Source: Amphibalanus amphitrite (Eukaryota > Arthropoda > Thecostraca > Balanomorpha > Balanidae). Taken from it: a DNA stretch of 64,000 bases. The position numbers and the translations under genes were made by a program. The DNA is taken from NCBI RefSeq assembly GCF_019059575.1, contig NW_024881566.1, positions 186,001-250,000 on the forward strand. The letters run 5' to 3'. How positions within the stretch are numbered: position 1 is the first letter of the stretch; each line of letters starts with the position of its first letter. A model generated the notes under the pieces. The model searched no databases. It worked only from the letters and a program-made list of their open reading frames with translations, and was not told the DNA's origin. Below are positions 21,801 to 42,800 of the stretch, piece after piece.

Positions 21801-24800
21801 ATCCCGGCCCGTCGACCGACCTGATTTCGGTGTTGTTGGCCACCATGACGGCGCCGCGGCTGTCGGAGGCCAGCTGGCTGTAGCCGTGGCTCAGGTTAGC
21901 CGCCAGCTGTCCCAGCTGCGCCGGGTCGGCCGCCGACTTCTGAGACATCTCCTGAGATGTGCGGCTGATCTCCTTCACACTCTGCACCATACGCGTCTGG
22001 TAGTCGACGAAACTCAGGTCGCCGTACGCCCTGCAGAGGTAGCAAGCGATAGCGGAGGTTAGTATAATACAGGTCATGGTTATCTGCAACATGCTGAACT
22101 GCTATGATGAACATCAAACAATCACTTCATTAAAAATGATGAGGATCAGAAGAAAAATAATCTTATAAAGAAGTAATGAAAATTAACACTGAGGATCCCG
22201 ATTCACACGTCAATGTGTTAAAGATCCCCAGTTGTTCATAAAGCTGATAGCAAACTTAAGCTAAAATATGTTAGCTCGTTACAAGGAAGGCACTAGCACC
22301 ACGCCCCAAACAGCATTATCCGCGGTAGGCGTAGGGTCGGTCGCCATGACCTTCCCAGTGCACACACACCCAGAGACACGGACCTGCTGTCTGTGAAGTC
22401 CTGCTGCACCATCGACTTGTTGATGGTGTCGATCACGCCGTCGACAAAGCCGGCGTTGGCCGCCTGGTGCTCGAGACTGGCCAGCAGCTCCTGGGCCGCC
22501 TCCTTCATCGTGTCCGCCGACTCGTCGATATCCGAGTGGATGTGCGACGCCTTGGGGTTGCCGCCACCCTCCTTGGCGGCGTAGAGCAGCTGCAGCGCCG
22601 ACTCAGTCAGCGTCTTGCTCTGCTCGATCAGCATCATCTGCTGCTTGGTGTTGATCATGTGCGAGCAGGTGCCCACCACGGAGGCGCACAGCGGCTCGAA
22701 GAACGAGCTGAGCGCGGTGACGCCGTGTCCCAGCCGCTCAGCCTCGCCGCGGGCAGCGGCACGCACTTTGTCCACCGTCTGCAGAATCTGTAGGACAAGG
22801 GAGGGGATCACGGTCAGTCGGCGGGGAGCGAACCGGGAGAGCAGAATCACATAGAGGAGAGAGCTGAGTGACTGATAATGACTTGCACGCATTGTGCTTA
22901 CAAGTGGACCAAAAAAAAAAAATCAAAGGATGACTGAAGTGATTCTATAGTTCTAAGCGGAATACAGTGTAGGCGAGCAACGGGGTTTCCTCACTATTCT
23001 TGGAAACACTTTCTCTCAGCTTCAGTATAACCAGTCCCTAAGTCAACAGCCATGGCCTGACTGCCCACTCGCGAAGCGGTCTTACCTGACTGGTGGCGTT
23101 CTCGGCGCGGTCGCTGAAGCCCTGCAGGGTGTTGTCGCGCCGGGGTGCCAGGCTCTGACTGGCCACCGCCATGCTGGCCTGGTCCAGCTCGCGGATAGAT
23201 GCCGACAGCTTCTCGATGCTATCCTCGCACTCCTTCTGTCCTGGCGCCTTATCACGGATCGACGACACCAGTGCCTTGATCGAGTCTGAGACGTCCTTGC
23301 TGTGCGAGGCCAGCGCCTGCCAGCGTCCCGGGTCGCGGCTGTTGACCGCCAGCGACTTGGCGGCCGTGATGAGAGCGCACGAGCCGTCGATAATGCGCCG
23401 GCCCGAGTCGCCGATCGGTTGTTGCGCCTGCTGCGCCTTGGCAGAGATTTTGGCCGGCACGGACGCAAACTCTGGCGAGTTGGCGAAGCTGCAGAGGTTG
23501 TCCACTGCCTCGATCAGCGGCCGGGTGGCCTGGGCGCAGCGCGCACGGTTGGCGTCGCTGTAGTCCTTATCGAGCTCCTTGATCTCCTTGACGAGCGCAG
23601 CCGTGGCGTTGGCCACGTCCTTGGCCGCCTGCACAAAGTGCCGCTTGGCCACCGGGTTGGTGGACTTGCCGCTGGCCACGCGGCAGCTGGTGCACAGCGC
23701 AGACGTGTGCTTGGCGATCTGGGTGGCCGCCGAGAGCACCTGCTGCTGAGAGCTGGCGCGGTCTGTCAGCGCCACGCACGCCTGCTGGATGGCCTCTCGG
23801 GCGCGGCCGAACTGGCTCTGGTCGACCAGGCCGGGCCGGCCGGCCACCGAGGTCGGATCGGAGACGCCGATCAGGTAGCTGGCCTGGGCGGCCGACTCAA
23901 TCAGGCCGCAGATGGACTCGGACACAGAGCCGACCGACTGGCCGAACCGCTCCGGGTCCGGCTGACGCGTGTGGTTGGCGATACCCGTCATACCGTCACC
24001 TGCCGGAGCGGGGCAAAGCAGTCAGGGATGGGCGCATGGGTCGTTGCAGCGAGAGCGGGCCGTACATGGGCTGATGCAGAGAAAACGGGAAACGAGAAAG
24101 AAACGATAAAAGTAGCTCGGAGACGGCGAATCGGAATATTGAAGACGGAGAGTGGGAATATTGAGCTAGAGTAAAGTGCTAGTCAACAGAAGTACAGCGG
24201 CGGCTGAGGAAAAGACTAGGAAGTTATCAACACTTTCGGTCCACTTGTCGCCCAGACGAGAATGCTTGAAATCGTCACTCACCCAGACTGCGGGACTTGT
24301 CCATGACGGTCTCGAGGCACTCAAAGTAGGAGCAATCGCTGATGGGCTCGGTCGGATTGGCCAGCAGCGGCTGCAGGCTCTGGATCTGGCGGATAGCGTT
24401 GTCACACTCGCGCTGGCCAGGCGCCGCCGACGTGCACACGTTCACCAGACTGTTGATGGAGTCCGTCACCTGTTCACAGACACGGAGAGGTCAGTCTGGG
24501 TGGTAAAATACCTAATGATGGGTGGGGTGGATCGGCGGTAAATGCATTCATAACACATACAGTAATGGCGCCTACCATAGCTGATTTTCAAAATTATTCT
24601 TCAACACCAGCATGAGTCATTCAAGGACACTGACGCCGCTGGCAGGCACGTGTTTGTATCAACTGATCATGCGATGTAGAACAGAGATAGGGACAGGGAT
24701 AGAGACCACAATCTAGTAACGGAGACAAAACGGGGACAGGTACAGAAGACGGAGACAGACAGAGAAAGGGAGACAGGAACGGAAAGAGATAGCGACAGAC

Positions 24801-30800: not shown

Positions 30801-33800
30801 AAGGCCACGGAAACAATTTCGTAGTATTGAATATTGACACTAAGCTCCGGTTCCTAAAAATAAAACGCTGGAAGAGCCTGTTACTCATATCATCGCACAC
30901 AAACTGTTTGGAAATGTTTATCAAACAAAACGATTTGTGGCGTGGGCGTCCTCATTCAACCCGTTCGCTCGGCCTGACTACTCTATCGTCGGTGTACTTT
31001 ATAAAAGCAGCGGTACTAACACAAACTAATTCCCAGCAGCTACAAGCACAAAGGCGCAGGCCGCAGCTGGTTGGTCGAACACAGTGAACAGTCAGCGTGG
31101 ACCTACTGTCTGTAAGGGACACCGAAATCCCCGGCTGCCAGCAGAGATAGACTCCCCTGCCCGGCCCTGGCGACTGTGCTGCGGTCAGGCGGCGCTACTG
31201 TAGCTACTCGGACCAAGGCGCACCGGACTGGCGATACCCATGGCTACATAAGGTGGGCACATGCGGCGACGTGCAGCTATCGAGACCGGGTCGGGCCGGG
31301 TCGCGCTCAAACTCGGCGCAGGAGACTAAACCGACGGCTAGCTGGAAAGCTAACTCCCTGAGGAAGCTAGCAACAAACGTCTCCTAAGCGTAACTCAAGC
31401 AACAAACACAGACGGAGTCGAGTCGACGGGGAAGGGGGACACCCCGTCGACCCAGCTTCATTCACCATGCGGTCGCCATGCAGCAAAGCAGCGTTTCGCA
31501 TAGCATCGAGTCAGCCGCGAGCTAACAGCGGCCCTACGCTCGGTGGCGCTGACATGCAAAGTGCGTGAGACAGACACAGCGCCATGGCGGCGAGCGCGGC
31601 GCATCGGGCAGCCACTAACCGGGGAGAGGCCGGCGGCCTGCTGCGTCGCATACGCCTCCTCCTGTAACAGTGGCGCATGGCTGAGCAGGGCCGTGGGTCG
31701 GACTCGGCGCCACACGCGGGGTTAATTATTACACACACACGCACGCAGGCCGGGATGAGAGTTACTGTCAGTCTAGTATACAGGTGTACCACGAGCAGCG
31801 AACACAAAGATGAGGCTTGCCCGTAGTTAGTGCGGCAGAGCCCAGAGACAGTCTGAGGGGTTAGTGAATCGCCGCAGTACGGACGGTGCCGGGTCGGCCG
31901 GACCGAGGGTAGATTACAGTTACCATAGGTACTACACCCTCAAATCGAGGAGCCGGCGAGGGAGAGTTAGGGCCATGTTACACTGCCATGCCGTGCCCGC
32001 TAATATTATCCACAGCACCAAACCAAGACACCCATCCCAGAGACACACATCCCCGTATCAAACTCCCCATACCAGCACTCAAAGACCAGTCCACCAGGCA
32101 CACTCTGAGCTCGACCAGGCCGCGAGTCCTGCCCGGTCACCTACCTTGATGCTCTGGATGAGCTGGGCGGTAGCCTGCGCCAGGATGCGCGCCTGGTTCA
32201 CCATCTCCTTTGTATCGGACGGCTGCGCGAACATTTTGTCCGTGACGGTGATGATGGTCTCCACACAGGTCTCGTCCGTGGTCTCCTTGACACGCTGCTT
32301 GGTGCCATGTCTGGCGGGGAGGGTTAGAGTGTGGTAACATGGTGTGCAAGGGCGACAGCACAGATGTTCAGACTTCAAACACAGTTGGTAACGCATGCCA
32401 GTCCAACATGGCCGGCGGCTACATACTCAAACGCTGACTTTTAAGGCAACAAACAAACGATTGCAAAACACAGCCCAAGACAGCCCTAAAACACAATAAA
32501 TACAACACACTGTCGACATACAGCAGCCCGTCCCAAAGCATCATTCCTCTCCCCTCCCCACTCAACCACCCATCGGCCACTCACTTGATATGGTTCAGCA
32601 GGTCGTTGAGGGCGCGCGTGACGTCGGTGGCCGCGGTGCCCAGTTCGCGGCTCAGGGCCTCATCCTGACAGCCGAGCTGGCACTCCTGGACGACGGCCTC
32701 GACAGCGCGCGCCACCTCCTTGGCCGCCTCGATCAGCTGGTCCTGGCAGCTCGGGTTCTGGATCGTCGGGGCCACCACCTACGTGGGAGAGGCCAGACAA
32801 GAAGATGACGTTACTTGATGGAAGGGACGAGTGTGAAATAATGACTACAGCGTTTCAGTTACAACAAAACCAGCGTCGATACAATAAGTGCAGTCGGAAG
32901 GGACGGAGTCTGGATGGTGCATAAATTTCTATCGCAGAAATAAGGTTCAAGGGTGGTGAACAGAGACAATGATGAACACACCGCAGGCTTTGCAGTGACT
33001 ACGGCGCCCACCAACATCTAAAGACTCAAGTCAGGTGGGTATATAATATGGCGTCGTTCCCTTCAAAAATCCTACCCTGCCCCTGAATCCACCAGTCAAC
33101 ATCCCAATCAAATCCTAATCACATCCCAACTTCTTATGTCTCAACACACGCCGCTCACCTTAGCGATGGCCACCAGCTGCGAGGTGGTGAGCGCGCACTG
33201 GGTGGCGGCGCCGATCACGCGGTTCTGCTGATCCTCCGTCTCACATGTTGACGCCACGTTTTTGGCCTTGAGTACCAGCGCGGCGGTGGAGTTGGCGACG
33301 GCCTTGGCCAGGCCGAGCAGCACATCCTGCACCTCCGTGTTGATCTCGGTCTCCTCAGCGATGTTGGTGAGCACGCCGCCAGAGGCCTCGCCCACCCGAG
33401 AGGCGGCGTTCAGCAGGTTCTGGCGCGGCTGCTCGGCGGAGACGGAGCGGGGAGAGAGGGTCAGACCGATGGGGCTCGCACACAGTGCTGATACCTACTG
33501 GTGTTGATTACTGCCCCTGTGATCGGCTTGATGAGCAAGCATGATAAATTTATATTTCTGGTTCGAAGTAGTCATTCAGGCTAAGGCTCCAATGCAGCAC
33601 TTAGACACTATCTCCGACAACTGTTTTCAGCTACCTCAGATCACAAAAGTCGTTAAACCTAATCGAAACCCGGCATTTCTATCCTTTTGAAGCCGTAGAC
33701 CAGTTGAAATCGTTTTCGGCCACAAACACCCTCCCCATCAGCCCTGCGGCAATGGCCCACCTCCAATTTCTCCGGCTCGGCGGCCTGCAGCAGGTCGCTG

Positions 33801-36800
33801 AAGGGAATTCCCCTCCCGCTCTATTCCCCAGCCCTGCGGCGGCGACCCACCTCCTGTTTCTCGGGCTCTGCGGCCTGCAGCAGGTCGCTGAAGAGGAATT
33901 CCCAATCTATTACCCCAGCCCAGCACGGCCCGGTGACCCACCTCCTGTTTCTCGGGCTCTGCGGCCTGCAGCAGGTCGCTGAAGGCGTCACACAGCTGCC
34001 GCGTGGCGCCGATCAGCCGATCGCCCGACATGGAGTCGTCCATGAGCGCGGCGATTGTCTGTACGCCACGGGTCATCGACGGCAGGTTGGTGGTGATGGT
34101 CGAGATGGCCGCGCCTGTGGACGTTCAGGGCGGTCAGCGCGGGGTAGAGTAACGTAGCGAATAAATCGAGACTGAGCTACAGGGGTGAGGCGTATGGAGG
34201 GGAAGAGCTCCAGAGAGCCTTATTTGAAATGGATAGCGTACACAGGCTGAACGTTCAATGCAGTAACAATCAACACGGCAGTTTACCGCCTGGCTAAACG
34301 ACACTCTAGAAATTGTCCAATGCATTTAGACTTCATGGCAACAGGAATGCTTTGGTCGTTGTCGCCCGACTTATGAAATGTTAGCCATCTCGAAATGGTG
34401 GCGGTGGTTTAGGCAGTTTGAAGTTTTAAACGCAGTCGGCGGGACCAACCCAGGATGCGAGAGGTGCCATTTAGACAAGTAGCTGGCTAAGCTGCCACAA
34501 TAGCGATAATACTGCGCAAGTCACATCTCAGCTAGTCATTTTCCACACACTAAACAAACCATTCCACCAAAACAGTAATCAAGCCGCTCTTGGGCAAGCT
34601 CCATAAACAGCTATCGCACCCGCACACACAAAAAGGCACATGAATGCCGCAAATATACCACAGCGAGCACCTCCACTCGGACAAAGGATGTGGCTGAGAG
34701 CGACACAGCTCGGCCGGAAGGGTCTGTACGGGTCTGTACGGGTCTGTACGGATCTGTACGGGTCTGCCGAGTCTGCACGCGGCCACGGGCGGTGCCGATT
34801 CAAACCGCGCACGTCTTTAGTAGGAGGGCGGGGAGCGGCGGAGCTCGGCTCTCGGCGCCTGAGTTTAGCCACAGCAGACGAGGGCGGCGCACGCCGCTCT
34901 GACGGGCGGCCGGGCGGTTAGGGCACACGGCAGCGGCGGCAGCGGCGGGCCGCGCGCGCGGTACGTACCGGTGCCCCGGCCGCCGGCAGCTCCGTCAGAG
35001 CGCGCGGCGCGGCCGTCGTCGGCGGCTCAGCTCTGAGCGCGGCGTCCCCAGGCGCACACACCGTTCGGCCAGCCGTGTATTGGAGAGAGAGCTCACACGG
35101 CCGGCGCAGCGGCGCAGCAGACCCGGCACGGCACACACGGAGTTGCGGCACCGAACACGAGGCTCACACCGAGCCTCACAGGGTGTAAGACGGCGCCACG
35201 CCGCGGCAGACTCGTATCTTCCGTAAGGGTGGACCGGGCGGCGGGCGCCGAGAATAGAAGGCCCCTTACACACCACGCTACACAGAGCTACCCAGGGGAG
35301 CGGCAGACCCGTACCTTCCAAAGGGCGCAGCCCCAGAGATAAAGCACCAGCACAACGCCGGGTACAGAGTTTGCAGCTCTTACATTGCTGCCAGCGGCGA
35401 CCCAATGCACACAAGCGACACAGCACTCGGATACAGCCCACGGAAGGCGTCCCCAACGCTCATTAAGCAAACTCCACTACGGGATGGCTGCATACTGCAT
35501 AGTGCATAAACTCCACACCACTCACTTCATGAACTCAGCACCTCTCATTCCATAGTCAATACCCAGGTAAACCCTCGCTACTGCGGACATAATTGCATCC
35601 TTTCATATTGAGCCCAAATAATTCGGTAGTTTTACAGCTGGCCCAAACGTTCCTCCACTTCTGGGCCCATTGGCACATATTCCTTCCAGCACTCATAGGG
35701 ACGCAATCTAGAGCAGACCGTCCCCCTGCGGCCCCGTCCCCGTCGCGCGCCGCTGCCGACTCCTCCAGTCCAGCCAGAGCATTGTCAGAGCGGCCACACA
35801 GAGTACGAGAACGGCTATCAGCGGGCCGTGGGGTCCAAGCGGGGAGCGACGAACGGCAGCCAGCGCCACCGGTTCTGCCGCAGGGGTCCCTGCCGAGGGT
35901 CCACTCAGAAGGGTCCCTTCCGACGGTCCATCTACAGGGGTCCCTAACGCCGCCCGCTCCCCATCCACCTCTGCGGTCCTTCCCTCTTCGGTCGCCGTCC
36001 CCCGCTCGGCACTCCCACTCGCCTCTGCCGACGTTCCAGCCTCGGTCGGTAAAACTCCCAGTCCCAGCGGGTCCTGCGTCTTTCCTGTCAGCTCCTGTGG
36101 CTCCCCCGTGCCGTCCGCCCCGGGCCGCCAGCGCAACGCGCTCGGCTCAACGTCCACAAAGCGCATCACGAGCCTGCTCTCGACCCAAGCGAGTTCCTCT
36201 GCCTCCTCGGCCTCCACCCAGAGCAGGTCCTCGCTGGCGCTCCTGGCGCGGTGCAGCGCCGGCCCGAGCTCCCCCTCAGAGACGGCGTCCGGCTCGCCGA
36301 GATCAGCGTCCCGCGGCCTCTCCTCGCCGCCTGGCAGGCTCTTTTCCAAGAGATCCCACTCGGTTTTAGAAACTCTAACGTCACCCAACTCCCTAGCTTG
36401 TTTGGCATCTCCATTGCGCTCAGTAAATTTGACATCGAAACTGTCATTCGTCTGGCTTTCTGTGCAGTCTCTGCTGCCTCCAGTCTTTCCGGAATCCCCG
36501 CCTTTCCACCGCCCCCGGTCGCTCTGCCTATCTGCGCTCGTCTCCTTCAGCTCGCTACTGCCGGCCGGAAGCTGTCCCCGCCGCTGATCCTGCAGCTGGA
36601 GAGCCTCTTGGAACACCCGCCGGGCCAGCTCGCTAGAGCGGGTCCAGTCGGGACAGCCGGCCGCACTCGCGCTGCCCGCCCGCGGCCGGCGAGGACCGCT
36701 CGGAGACTGGCTGCCGGGTAATGGACGCAGGGTCTGTACACCCTCAGAGTTAGCCCGCAACGTTCTGGGCCTGGGCAAGGGGCTGGTTTTGGTACGCTCA

Positions 36801-39800
36801 TGAGTTATGCTGCCGCTATCTGGTTCGATGCTGCTTTGGTTGAGTGTACAACTAGAATCAATGGCTATCTGATTCCCAAATTCGGAAGATACTTTTGAGC
36901 GGGTTCCGTTTATTTTAATATGCTGATTTTTATCGTAACAGGCTTTAGAATTATGAAGGATTTCTGAGCTAGAGTTGTATCCACTTTGTGCAAGCCCGTC
37001 GGTAGAAGCTGCTCCTTCCCTCTCGACCTCACGACTCTCCTGAGAGCAGGTCCTGTTCTCTGTGATAGCAGCGCCCTCCTCTGACCAGGCCCTGGCATCT
37101 CGACCCCTCTCCATCCAGCGGCATCGCTCGGGCTCCTCTGACCAGCCCCTTGTGCAGCCGCGCCGGCCCCCCGCCGGCCGGACCCGGGGCGACGGCGGCG
37201 GCCGGGCCGCGGTGCTCGGCCAGATGTGCTCAATGTACTCCGTCTCCTCATAGACCCGCGCCGGCCGGCGGCCGCCCCTCCCGACCCGCGAGTCCAATAC
37301 CGCGCTGCCGCCGCTGCCGTATCGGGTTCTATATCGCTGAAACCCTGCTCCGATACTACTAGAGGACACAGAAGGCCGTCCCGTGTCGCTCCGAAACCCG
37401 CTGAGGTAGTTCTGACTCCTCTCCCCTCCTAGTTCACTCGTGGGCTGCACCTCAGCCACTGCTCTCGTAGCCAGCGGCGGAGTTCTCGCTATACACGTCT
37501 CTGCGCTACCGCAGCTACTGCTACCGCTACTGCTCAGCTCAGTCCGCCTGCCCACAGGACTGTCAGGAGTGGGAGCGCTGGGACTGGGTGACAGCCGCCC
37601 GTCTCTACCCATTACAGCTCTTCTATCACCCGTACCAGCACTGTTCCAGCCATCTATACCATCACGCCTCTCTACGCCAGAACCACCGACCGCACCGCTC
37701 AGCACACTCGCTCCATAACGCCTCTCATCCCCTCCCACACCCTCCGCCGCCTTCTCTGCACCCTTCTGCATCACTGGAAACGTCGCGACTCGACACGTAC
37801 CGACGGCCGTGTGATCGACGTCCTCCTGTGGCCCGGAGGTGAGGGTCACCACCTGGGCCGTGGCCGCGTTCATGGCCGCCAGCTGCGACGACACGCTCTG
37901 CTTGTTGGTGTCCATGGTGGTCTCCTTCCACTTGAGCGATGCCTGTGGGAGGGAAGGAGGGTCATAGGGTGAGGTGGGTGGGCTGGGTGAGCATGAGACA
38001 TGGGTGAACAACACAGGTTTGTTTATAGGAGTTTTAGGGGGCGTCGACAACTTGCGCCCATTGCACGACACACGAGAGGCAGGATTGCTCAAGATGGGTT
38101 GCTCGTTATAAAGCCCCATCACAGTCACATTAACAACTTAGCAACATCATCTGAGCGTCAAAGCCAGTCGTAGAACTTTCACTCGCATAACCCTGCATAC
38201 GTAACCAACGACTGGCATTCATCAGATTCTCATGTCACTACAGTTACCCACAATCACGATACACCCTTCCCCTCCCCTTCCTCCCAGCTCTCGGCCACAC
38301 GGTCACCCTCTACCTTCACTCTCCTCTGGCCCCTCTCCCTTCCTCTGCCCAAAGTAATGTTGTCTCCCTCCCTCTGCGGGGCAGAGTCCACTAACCGGGT
38401 CGGTTCCCAGCTCGGGGAATTGCATCCTGGTGTCGAGCTGGCGGCGTGCCGAGTCGATGGCCTCGTGTCCCACCACAATGGTGTTGACCAGCGCGCGCTG
38501 CGGCTCAGAGCCCACGGACGTGATCTGGGGCTGCTGCGCCTGAGAGGGTGGGTAGGGGAACCGTCAGAGGGTGGGTGGGGACGGGGACTACAGCACATAG
38601 TGGACACAGACAGAGACTGTGAGACTCTACAGCTACACACGGTGATCCTTCCACAGCAAATACAGTTGAGCTTCAGGCGCAGTAGCTTGAATCATGGAGT
38701 ACCAGCAGGACATGGCACGGCCCTGAGGATTGTTAGCTCTATCCCATCAGTACAGTCCTGGCAGATTCGAAGCATGGACACTGCACAGCCTACATATGTA
38801 GCCTATATAGTAGCAGACATAGTCGCCTGGCGGCGGTCGCGACATCCCTGTCGATAGGGGGTCGCAGCCGCCCGGCTCAGTCACTAGCGGCAGCGCAGGC
38901 AGCAGTCACGGCCGGTCAACAGTGATGGACCATTAGAGGTGCAATGTGAACAGAGCACATCACGGCTGGATGGCATCCACACTCACAGCACAGCCACACT
39001 CATCGAACACAGATGTGGTGCCACAGTCAGTTAGCGCAGTCAGTCTCAACCAGCGAACGGCCAACAATCACACATAGCCCAGACAGTCAACGCGTAGCCC
39101 ATAGTCAACGATCAGCCCACAGTCAGCCAGCAGTCTACAGCCAGTGAACAGCCCACAGCCAGTCTCATGGCGGGCGCCACATATTTACAATCAGCCAACA
39201 GCTGTCAGCCAGCCTACAGGCACGTAGGTGGCTATTTGATGCTACAAAGTTAGTTAATGACGGTTAAAACAGCTCGTGCAGCCAACAGTCAGTTGGTTAC
39301 ATTTTATGAAAATGTCTGTAATGGAACGCCAAGATGGGACACTTGTCCAAATCGTGCAGAATAAAACGAAATGTACGGTGATTACTGGTCATGCATCGAA
39401 ATGAAATAAACTACTAACTGAATTGGAATGACATGCACTTGCATCAACCCATTAGTCTATTTGATGGCATGACAGGAGCGATATATTTATGTACCTACAC
39501 AAATCCTAAAGAAGTATCCTTTGGAGGCTAGAAAAGGGACAGAAAGACACAATCACCCAAAGCACCAGAGATGGCACACGTCCCAACCCATGTTAGTCAC
39601 TTGAGTTGGTAAAGGCTATAAAAGGTTGTTTGGAAAGGTCTGGAGCGGTTCAATGGGATACAGAGCAGGGCAGGACAAGCCAAGACGGACAAAACCAGCC
39701 AGGAAGTACTGGAAGCACTCGGGATACTGAGCCCAGCCTCGGGACAGGACCGGTGGCCGACAGCACGGCTCCAGGAACTCGCCAGGCCGGCCGAGCTCAT

Positions 39801-42800
39801 AACCCTCAAGTGGGACCAAATGCACGCCACAAGGAGCGGTCGAGATCGCCGACAGCCGGCCTCGGGGCTCGGCGGACGCCGTCCGTCCGGTTGGCCACGG
39901 CGGCTCCTTAGCTGCCGCCGTCCGACCGTGCCCGCTGGCCCTCCGGCCGATCTGGTGTTGGGTTACACCCTCGACCGAGGCAGCGGCCAGCTCAGCTCGG
40001 CCGGGCCGGGTGGATCAGAGGTGAGCAGAGACGGCGCCAGGACTCTGAGAGCCTAGCAGCTCGGATGGCGGTAGGTGGAAGGTGGTAGTGATGGTGTGAT
40101 GTGGGGTGAACAAATGGAAGAGCCGGCCAACACTTCCCAGGAGTGAAAATCGACTGGAGTGACAGGGAAATATGCGATCCATGTACCGGAGAGACGGACG
40201 GAGGCAGGTAGAAACGGTCAGTGTCTGAGATACGAGTCAGAGTTGACAGCCAGGATCGGTTTCACGATGGCAGAGAGCAGAGTCTACTAGTCTGTGACAG
40301 ACGTGTTAGTGGTGTGAGTGGACAGCCAGGATCACTTCTCTGGTGGGCGGGTTAGACAGCGGTTAGCTCCGGTCGGCACGTCGTCAGCTCTTACCATGGG
40401 CGGCGCGTGTGCCAGGTTCACCTGGCCTCTCATGGTACCGTGCTGTGCTCCACCCATGTGGCCTGTGCCCATCACGTTCGGTCCTGGGCCACAGACGGCA
40501 CCGTCAGCGGGTCAGGAGGTCTGCGCGGGGCCCCCACCGGGACCAGCGGGACCCCGCGGAGCCGGCAGATCAGCCGGTCCAACATGCGACACATCCGTGC
40601 CCGAACCAAAGACGGCCGCCGTACCGGCGACCGACTACAAAACAGCGAACTGAACCGAACCGAGCGTGCTATCAAACACAGAGAGTGATCCCGCGGCTGG
40701 CGGGCGGCCGCAAACAAACTGACAGCAGAACAAATCAACTGGCCGGCTGAGCAGTGAACTGAACAACGTAACTCGCAGGCTCAACCCACCGCAGTAACGG
40801 GGGAACGCAATGTGAACGCGACCGGTCACCGCCGAACAGAGTCTCACTAGCGGGCCGCGGCGGGTCTAACACAAAGACTGCCGGTTTGAGACTTACCAGT
40901 GTCACCCGTCCGGAGGATGCCTGGCTTGGAGATGGAGTCCTCCTCCACCTTGGTGATCTTGGTCATGCCCTGCTGAATGATGGTGGCCCTGTGGCAGAGG
41001 AGGAACACGGGAACACGCTGTTAGGAGCCGGGTATGTAACACATTGGCCCACACATCTAATACGGCGCTGCAGTCATGCCGGTGTGCAACTTTGTCTACA
41101 CTTTGTGAGTTGTTGGATAATAATCGAGTCACTACGCCCACTTTCCCTAGTTTCTACCTTTTCATCAAACCTAAACTGGCACATCGTCGGCAGGGAAGGC
41201 CTGAGGTTGATCGGGAATATTGTTTGACCCCCCGGTTCACACTGGGCCACAAATCACGGTCACATTTCGGGTCCGTCAGAGGCAGCCACTGCCGGCGCCG
41301 TTAACAGTGTATCAGAGTCCGTGGCAGCGGGCGGCTGGTAGCGGTCGACTGGTCGACACCGGTGCTTTCTGGACGCATCAACAGAGCTAGCCGAACGGCG
41401 CAAGCTCAGTCCTTCGATATCAAATTTGTACGGTGTATGCATAAAAATGGGATACAATTCAAATTAGCCCAAAACACCTAGAGATCTTAACATTACACCT
41501 CAATCTTGACACGTCATTCTCTCCATTTCTACGCGATGTTGGCTACCATTCCCACATCTCATTCTGACCACTTAAACTCCACAAGCCAATCCAGTACATC
41601 CTCCAAAAAAGCATCAACATGCCTTCAGACCCCTCCAGCCCGCCCCTTCCACCTGACTCACTTGTTGGGCGACACGGACTCTTCCAGCATGATGGCATCG
41701 TCATCCTTCTCGACGCCCAGCCAGTCCTTGGACTTTTGCTTCTTGAGGATGATGTCGATGTAGCCGGCGATCAGCTGTGAGATCTGCTCTCCCTCCGTGG
41801 TCTGAACCGAGTAGTACTGGTCGGCGTAGTCGCCGAAATCTGACGGCGCGGAGGGACGGATAGTCAGCAAGGGGGGGGGGGGCGTCACAGGGAGGGATGG
41901 AGGAACGAGCGAACGAGAAGATGTCACACAGCAATAAAAGCGGCGCCTCGCTGGACAGGCGTACTTTGGAATGTTAGCATGGCTATGTGTGAATGTGATT
42001 GAAGATGAAAAAGACTGGCCAAGTGACTCAGCCCAGCTGCAAAATGAAGACAGCCAGCACGTGAACGGAGAAGCGCAGGGTCAGGACAGAAAACGTCGAC
42101 TGGCGACACCTGGATTATGCTAAATTCCTCGAATTTACCATAATCCTACATACCCTATAATATGCGCGGCATGCTGCTAGAATTGTCCAAGCGGTTGCGC
42201 AGTATCCTAAGGACACATCTCCCTCATTAGCACACAATTTTGGGACTGGCAGGCGGCAGCCTCGCGGCGCACAGTGGTCAGTGGCCAGTGGCCACTCCTT
42301 ACTGGTCAAACGTACCGAGTGTGAAAGTGTTGGGGCTGATGGCCCACCGTCGCACAGTGTCCTAGCAGCACCTCTTTCACGTCCAAACGTAACGAGTGTG
42401 AATGTGTTCTCGGACGTCTGGCGACCCAGCGGCGCACAAGTAAGAAAATCCGTCCTTTTCTATTCAAACGTACCGAGTGTGAAAGTATTGGGGCTGGCCG
42501 CCCACCGGCGCACAGAGGTCAGCGGCCACTCCTTACTAATGTCAAACGTACCGAGTGTGAATGTGTTGGGGCTGGCGGCCCACCGACGCACAGTGGTCAG
42601 CGGCCACTCCTTACTGGCCAAACGTACCGAGTGTGAAAGTATTTAGGCTGGCCGCCCAGCGGCGCACAGTGGCCTGAGATCACCCCTCACAATTCCAAAC
42701 GTACCGAGTGTGAATGTGTTGGGACTGGCCGCCCACCGGCGGACAGTGGTCAGCGGCCACTCCTTGAGAATCTCCTTGGTCTTTTCATCCAGTCGCAGCA

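Follow-up and report, generated by a model that had tools for sequence, protein, structure and literature searches.

An in-frame continuation of talin exon 13 in Amphibalanus amphitrite is under purifying selection and may provide a tail-anchored C-terminus for a talin head

In a 64-kb window of the Amphibalanus amphitrite genome (the whole stretch of DNA analysed, C69:186001-250000, C69 being contig NW_024881566.1), the reading frame of talin exon 13 continues through the splice donor into intron 13 and remains open for 697 codons. Judged from one pair of diverged gene copies, this extension is protein-coding sequence under purifying selection, and its C-terminus is, by hydropathy and structure prediction, a coherent protein end with a single membrane helix. 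We consider it probable, from the sequence, that the extension belongs to a composite terminal exon which talin uses as an alternative when the exon 13 donor is ignored.

Most or all of the talin gene lies on the minus strand of the window (profile matches from 56639 to 8709). Matches to FERM_f0 (starting at 56639), FERM_M, IRS/PTB, Talin_middle, VBS2, R4, IBS2B, RS, VBS and I_LWEQ were all obtained on this strand, and a single gene thus encodes the features that mark a talin, namely the FERM head (F0-F3), R1 with the rod, and the I/LWEQ end. The exons around the extension are as follows.

38396..38539, minus strand: talin exon 12, covering the linker and the beginning of R1; donor GTTAGT; joins exon 13 in phase 0 (..GTDP-ASLKWKET..), by reading.
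37801..37942, minus strand: talin exon 13, Talin_middle/R1; Pfam PF09141, E 3e-18, matched over positions 36-85 of the 161-position profile; ends in phase 1.
37795..37800, minus strand: exon 13 donor GTACGT, the same in both gene copies; read through in the proposed isoform.
35708..37800, minus strand: in-frame extension of exon 13 with its stop, 697 codons, inside intron 13; open frame, also open in the second copy.
33942..34114, minus strand: talin exon 14, encoding the remainder of R1, to which exon 13 is constitutively spliced; end approximate.

Exon 13 (a number carried over from the original prediction, not from an exon count) starts at 37942, preceded by ...CCACAG. Over its 47 codons the two gene copies show a nonsynonymous divergence (dN) of 0 and a synonymous divergence (dS) of 0.24. 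A further CCACAG acceptor lies just before 34114, and splicing of exon 13 to exon 14 at this site gives normal talin (HTAV-G-AAISTITTNLPSMTRG). Because this splice restores talin, the extension falls wholly within intron 13 (37800-34115).

The original prediction had the exon 13 frame run through GTACGT for 697 codons and held so long a frame to be improbable by chance. Both statements were confirmed, the coordinates and the peptide being correct. The frame is open past the donor as far as a TAG at 35710-35708 and forms part of a stop-to-stop frame of 809 codons (38137-35708), the longest in the window. First- and second-order stop models, built from the open reading frame (ORF) region, from the window and from 33000-39000, gave a stop frequency of 3.0-3.7% per codon and a probability of 5e-12 to 6e-10 for 697 open codons; 2e-8 to 2e-6 runs of such length are expected in 64 kb and six frames. 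The run also possesses codon-position structure, with a chi-square of 42.6 against stop-free null means of 10.9 and 9.2, a value as high being reached in none of 400 simulations under either model. Local 3-periodicity at P < 0.05 was found in overlapping windows that include the first three past the donor (P 0.012 in 37801-37622, directly past it).

A search of the genome (807.5 Mb, 2644 contigs) revealed a second talin copy on contig C78, collinear with C69 across the window in blocks of 74-97% identity. Outside the window, four of six 10-kb pieces of C69 (at 136, 156, 176 and 250 kb) were likewise collinear with C78; those at 270 and 290 kb were not, within the first 190 kb of C78. All four FERM_f0 matches in the genome lie on C69 or C78. 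A second I_LWEQ gene is also present on two contigs (C528 and C835), and the 29 matches listed for the RNA polymerase second subunit all fall on three contig pairs (C31/C795, C119/C528 and C1227/C1472). Since C69 and C78 are collinear, and the other genes examined also sit on paired contigs, the two sequences are most likely haplotypes (or homeologs) of one talin gene. The copies differ by 12-15% in the stretches flanking the talin ORF.

All the dN/dS and simulation results that follow derive from one pairwise comparison, C69 against C78. In C78 no stop interrupts the 765 codons from exon 13 to the shared stop, and among the six frames that of exon 13 is the only one free of stops in both copies over the whole stretch. 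In a nucleotide alignment made with MAFFT, all six insertions or deletions (indels) in the extension are multiples of three. The flanks contain 32 indels, of which 10 are multiples of three: 4 out of 15 upstream (39190-37943, which takes in exon 12) and 6 out of 17 in the remainder of intron 13. Nucleotide identity in the extension (0.872) is not higher than in the flanks (0.855 and 0.875); constraint is therefore seen in the pattern of change, not in its amount. Over 696 aligned codons, the Nei-Gojobori method gave dS 0.256, dN 0.104 and a dN/dS ratio (omega) of 0.41 (bootstrap 0.32-0.52). Omega was below 0.6 in all eight non-overlapping windows and lowest, at 0.21, in 36401-36102. In neutral simulations an omega of 0.41 was reached in 0 of 3000 runs, and with substitutions alone the frame stayed open in 1 of 3000. 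It is because the frame is open in C78, omega is 0.41 and neutral simulations do not reach so low a value that we regard the extension as coding under selection.

A separate comparison, using the best blastn match in C78 only, covered 14 frames: the ORF, its three antisense frames, two talin-exon frames and eight long control frames not known to code. Each of the eight controls held 1-10 stops in the second copy; some of them share sequence with talin exons, read in another frame or from the opposite strand, and some matches cover only part of the frame. The talin-exon frame at 22293-22922 passed (0 stops, 2 of 2 indels), and that at 23038-24021 failed (4 stops, 0 of 3 indels), which we put down to intron flanks inside the frame. 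Even a true exon can thus fail this test.

The residues G, S, R and A are abundant in the extension. AlphaFold2, run on the single sequence, predicts it to be disordered (mean predicted local distance difference test score (pLDDT) 40; 600 of the 697 residues score less than 50). The exceptions are low-confidence helices at extension residues 390-408, 479-486 and 513-544, together with a terminal helix spanning 659-687. Long blocks common to both copies include EETEYIEHIWPSTAARPPPSPR, SSELARRVFQEALQLQDQRR, GDVRVSKTEWDLLEKSLPGGE, EGELGPALHRARSASEDLLWVEAEEAEELAWVESRLVMRFVDVEPSALRWRPGADGTGEP and AVRRSPLGPHGPLIAVLVLCVAALTMLWLDWRSRQRRA. The predicted elements of the protein, with hydropathy expressed as the grand average (GRAVY), are given below.

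36578..36634, minus strand: predicted helix SELARRVFQEALQLQDQRR, extension residues 390-408; pLDDT blocks 62-69; same in both copies.
36170..36265, minus strand: predicted helix GPALHRARSASEDLLWVEAEEAEELAWVESRL, extension residues 513-544; low model confidence; same in both copies.
35765..35821, minus strand: predicted transmembrane helix LIAVLVLCVAALTMLWLDW; GRAVY 2.3 over 19 residues; two blocks with pLDDT 91; same in both copies.
35711..35764, minus strand: 18-residue tail RSRQRRATGTGPQGDGLL after the helix; net charge +3.

A membrane anchor ahead of the stop had been part of the original prediction, and hydropathy and AlphaFold2 agree on a single such helix, identical in the two copies. 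It is followed by RSRQRR and lies 18 residues from the C-terminus, as in a tail-anchored protein; 19-residue windows starting before extension residue 620 reach a hydropathy of at most 0.48 in a scan of the extension.

Searches of Pfam, NCBIfam, the PDB and the animal's own genome gave the extension no family or relative as an independent gene. Neither copy contains a Pfam family at E up to 5, the window copy contains no NCBIfam family, and a search of the PDB returned two weak matches (E 0.32 and 0.5), taken as chance; a known domain was accordingly rejected. Among seven matches listed up to E 10 in a protein search of the animal's own genome, only those at the two talin loci had E < 0.1, on which ground a duplicate or mobile sequence was rejected too. 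The failure to find a family or an own-gene relative was counted in favour of a talin C-terminus. Pattern matches to the extension in viral contigs (45 and 16) and prokaryote genomes (81) yielded none that was confirmed, but these collections are non-animal and the result is no evidence of absence.

Given that the extension codes, the question becomes where coding begins. The strongest competitor to a talin isoform, unlikely in our estimation but deserving serious consideration, is a separate gene nested in intron 13 on the same strand, with its own promoter near exons 12-13, a start methionine at 37612 and a product of 634 residues that would be mostly disordered, tail-anchored and not a talin.

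37610..37612, minus strand: first ATG past the donor common to both copies, possible nested-gene start; G at -3 in both copies.

In favour of such a gene, the block just past this methionine (RLSPSPS..TPDSPVGRRTELSSSGSSSCGSAETCIARTPPLA) has one difference between the copies, 37801-37613 is poorly conserved, and codon use in the extension is unlike that of the talin exon pieces. The sequence upstream of Met 37612 nevertheless carries signs of coding. Across the 63 codons before Met 37612, the frame of exon 13 is stop-free in both copies, and omega in 37801-37613 is 0.59, compared with 1.42 and 0.89 in the other sense frames. The two MAFFT indels in this segment are 12 nucleotides each. Neutral simulation of the segment produced an open frame together with so low an omega in 6.6% of cases; multiplied by the chance of two in-frame indels (10/32 from the flanks), the joint neutral probability is about 0.65% (~0.0065), though the omega interval reaches 1.15. 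The frame that continues without a stop in both copies is also the same as that of exon 13, an agreement expected one time in three by chance alone. Coding thus probably extends upstream to exon 13, as far as this comparison of copies can tell, and for this reason we favour the talin isoform. A nested start at ATG 37771 was rejected, the codon being CTG in C78; the alternative first put forward, a nested tail-anchored gene starting near 37760, is weakened by the same loss.

Less probable again is a model in which splicing connects the ORF to talin, or to some other start, through an acceptor inside the ORF or from an as yet unseen exon, leaving some of the 697 codons unused. By eye, there is a good-looking acceptor (CCTTCTGTGTCCTCTAG) near 37362 within the ORF, and four windows from 37441 to 36992 are without significant 3-periodicity (P 0.16-0.62). 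That acceptor, however, begins at the third codon position and by reading is out of phase with both exon 12 (phase 0) and exon 13 (phase 1). No conserved acceptor was seen by eye in the alignment of the copies between 37800 and 37612, and the low omega in every one of the eight windows also speaks against this model.

A frame open by chance in a GC-rich intron, or a gene on the antisense strand, is highly improbable: a GC content of 61-65% does lower stop frequency, but chance is rejected on the expected number of runs, the open frame in the second copy, omega, the neutral simulations and the stops in all eight control frames, and antisense coding is rejected on stops at 14 to 26 codons of the antisense frames over the whole stretch and on a lower sense omega in each region compared. 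The regions in question are the whole stretch, 35711-36587 and 36053-36721, where one antisense frame has omega 0.52, 0.58 and 0.41 and the sense frame 0.41, 0.44 and 0.34. In that antisense frame a low omega is expected as a shadow, because its third codon positions are common to the sense frame. In favour of an antisense gene, plus-strand frames of 291 and 222 amino acids are stop-free before their end in the second copy.

The reading as an alternative terminal exon of talin has in its favour that, in both copies, the frame runs without a break out of exon 13 and across the donor. Several observations weigh against it. Codon periodicity is significant in only 11 of the 22 overlapping windows, and A or T occupies 0.35 of third codon positions in the extension compared with 0.13 in matched talin exon pieces. 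In the blastn alignment 5 of 9 indels in the extension are multiples of three; the frame is nonetheless open over 717 codons, so that its openness is independent of indel placement. Evolution is fastest in the first 64 codons (omega 0.58, bootstrap 0.32-1.15), strong conservation begins near Met 37612, and the segment upstream is short and the most diverged. Exon 13 ends in the middle of the R1 helical bundle, and the part of R1 that is retained would be expected to fold poorly by itself. Past the stop there is no canonical poly(A) signal, AATAAA and ATTAAA both being absent from 35707-34115; unless polyadenylated early, the message would be a retained intron and exposed to decay. The basic tail would suit mitochondria or peroxisomes as well as the endoplasmic reticulum (ER) and cell surface. 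We infer the joining of exon 13 to the extension in one transcript from the frame, the indels and dN/dS. The original interpretation stands as regards a coding extension with a predicted membrane helix, and is conditional as regards the transcript.

When 13 poly(A) hexamers were sought in 35707-34115, only AATACA (35081) and ACTAAA (34821) were present, both of them conserved.

35076..35081, minus strand: candidate variant poly(A) signal AATACA, conserved and followed by a GTGTGTG stretch; weak evidence.

The surrounding part of intron 13, 35200-34700, has a GC content of up to 0.78 and an observed/expected CpG ratio of ~1.2. Between 35100 and 34701 the two copies agree at 92-100% in the 50-nucleotide windows, as against 58-83% in the immediate flanks. 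This block is a candidate for an internal promoter (of a headless talin?), a conserved RNA element or a recent allele exchange.

Other features of the locus were observed in passing. The 3' part of exon 14 is repeated ~2.8 times with a period of ~90 (33739-33985), each copy ending in a donor-like GAG|GTGGG, which are possibly duplicated alternative donors. A tandem array of 77-nucleotide units (6.3 copies) at 42279-42765 overlaps the end of the PTB match (42861-42706). The assembly appears to carry two copies of the genes examined (dS ~0.25), whether as very diverged haplotypes, as a hybrid or as homeologs. The 14-kb block 19488-5579 is 97% identical between the talin copies. Towards the 5' end of the gene, identity is mostly 74-92% per block, with one block at 95.8%; divergence between the copies is a mosaic, as from recombination or gene conversion. 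A 1.8-kb piece (21317-19528) matches C78 out of place (124819-126615, 96%) and is likely a mobile element or a shifted insertion.

The proposed isoform would arise as follows. With the exon 13 donor bypassed and the transcript ended inside intron 13 before exon 14, translation would continue for 697 codons. The product would keep the FERM head and about half of R1, followed by a long, mostly disordered spacer rich in Ser, Gly and Arg with a few conserved, possibly helical motifs, and would end in a single tail-anchor helix. Its size would be some 590 + 697 residues, the 590 being our assumption from vertebrate talin numbering. As the frame stops at 35708, ahead of exon 14, the isoform would lack the actin-binding rod and C-terminus and be a head-only variant; the missing part of the rod would include the vinculin sites, the actin-binding sites and the part that holds the head autoinhibited. 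The tail anchor would be inserted after translation, probably into the ER and thence to the cell surface. An uninhibited talin head held at the membrane in this way may activate or occupy integrin beta tails without a link to actin, acting as a constant, non-force-bearing integrin activator or as a competitor of full-length talin at the beta tails. The conserved short motifs of the leash would be candidate docking sites.

As to the membrane concerned, tail-anchored proteins have, like the extension, a single hydrophobic helix near the C-terminus and a short tail, and the values found here (GRAVY 2.3, charge +3) can be placed on the axes used in the available portion of PMC5450235. In mammals, according to that text, a highly hydrophobic transmembrane domain (2.4 in the example) sends a tail anchor to the ER, and rising tail charge draws tail anchors to mitochondria and peroxisomes (PMC5450235). 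The values in the extension are intermediate, and by this analogy we lean towards the ER and cell surface.

We found no talin with its own membrane anchor in searches of open-licence PMC papers, and we know of no described tail-anchored protein with a talin head. The talin head released by calpain is freed from the rod, and hence from autoinhibition and the actin link; it is made by proteolysis and is cytosolic. It resembles the proposed isoform in being separate from the rod, but has neither spacer nor anchor. The original prediction that no membrane-anchored talin has been described thus agrees with this literature, but short talins with a different C-terminus had already been described in Drosophila. 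There, isoforms C and D are predicted to be short, with a C-terminus unlike that of the long isoforms, and a tagged short talin concentrates at leg-muscle costameres and not at attachment sites (available text of PMC4805545). Like the isoform proposed here, these are predicted short talins with an alternative C-terminus, a likeness of description only. The available parts of PMC6005683, PMC6453563, PMC6092120 and PMC7259718 hold no further detail on the fly short isoforms, and the rhea alternative splicing events tested were unchanged in Rbfox1 and bru1 flies in the portion of PMC8742874 available.

Other parallels are partial. Vertebrate talin-2 has short, tissue-specific isoforms that, like the proposed isoform, draw on part of the gene. 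In them it is the N-terminal half that is missing and the C-terminal rod that is retained, a mirror image of the arrangement proposed here, and the accessible text makes no mention of a membrane anchor (PMC2702505, PMC6032930). The testis form begins with internal first exons of its own (PMC2702505, in part). Alternative splicing near R1/R2 is also known from the TLN1 cassette exon 17b, but this adds 17 residues to an otherwise full-length talin (PMC9997659, available portion). The accessible text of PMC3311585 reports activation of purified integrin by the talin head alone, the view that the rod keeps full-length talin inactive, and the targeting of talin to membranes by RIAM-(1-176)-CAAX. 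The last of these shows a membrane signal bringing talin to the membrane, but is artificial, with the anchor on a partner protein and the talin full-length (PMC3311585).

Whether the talin gene also encodes a tail-anchored head, an integrin activator fixed to the membrane through a disordered leash of ~660 residues and free of autoinhibition and of actin, is to our mind an evenly balanced call. If it does, the animal could switch integrins on without loading them, and a built-in anchor would, through the design of the gene, keep integrin activation apart from the transfer of force to actin, the two jobs of talin. The Drosophila costamere isoforms may be relatives, in which case a membrane-linked short talin would be an old invention. 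Such an isoform would also offer a reason at the level of sequence to re-examine the puzzling short isoforms at Drosophila costameres.

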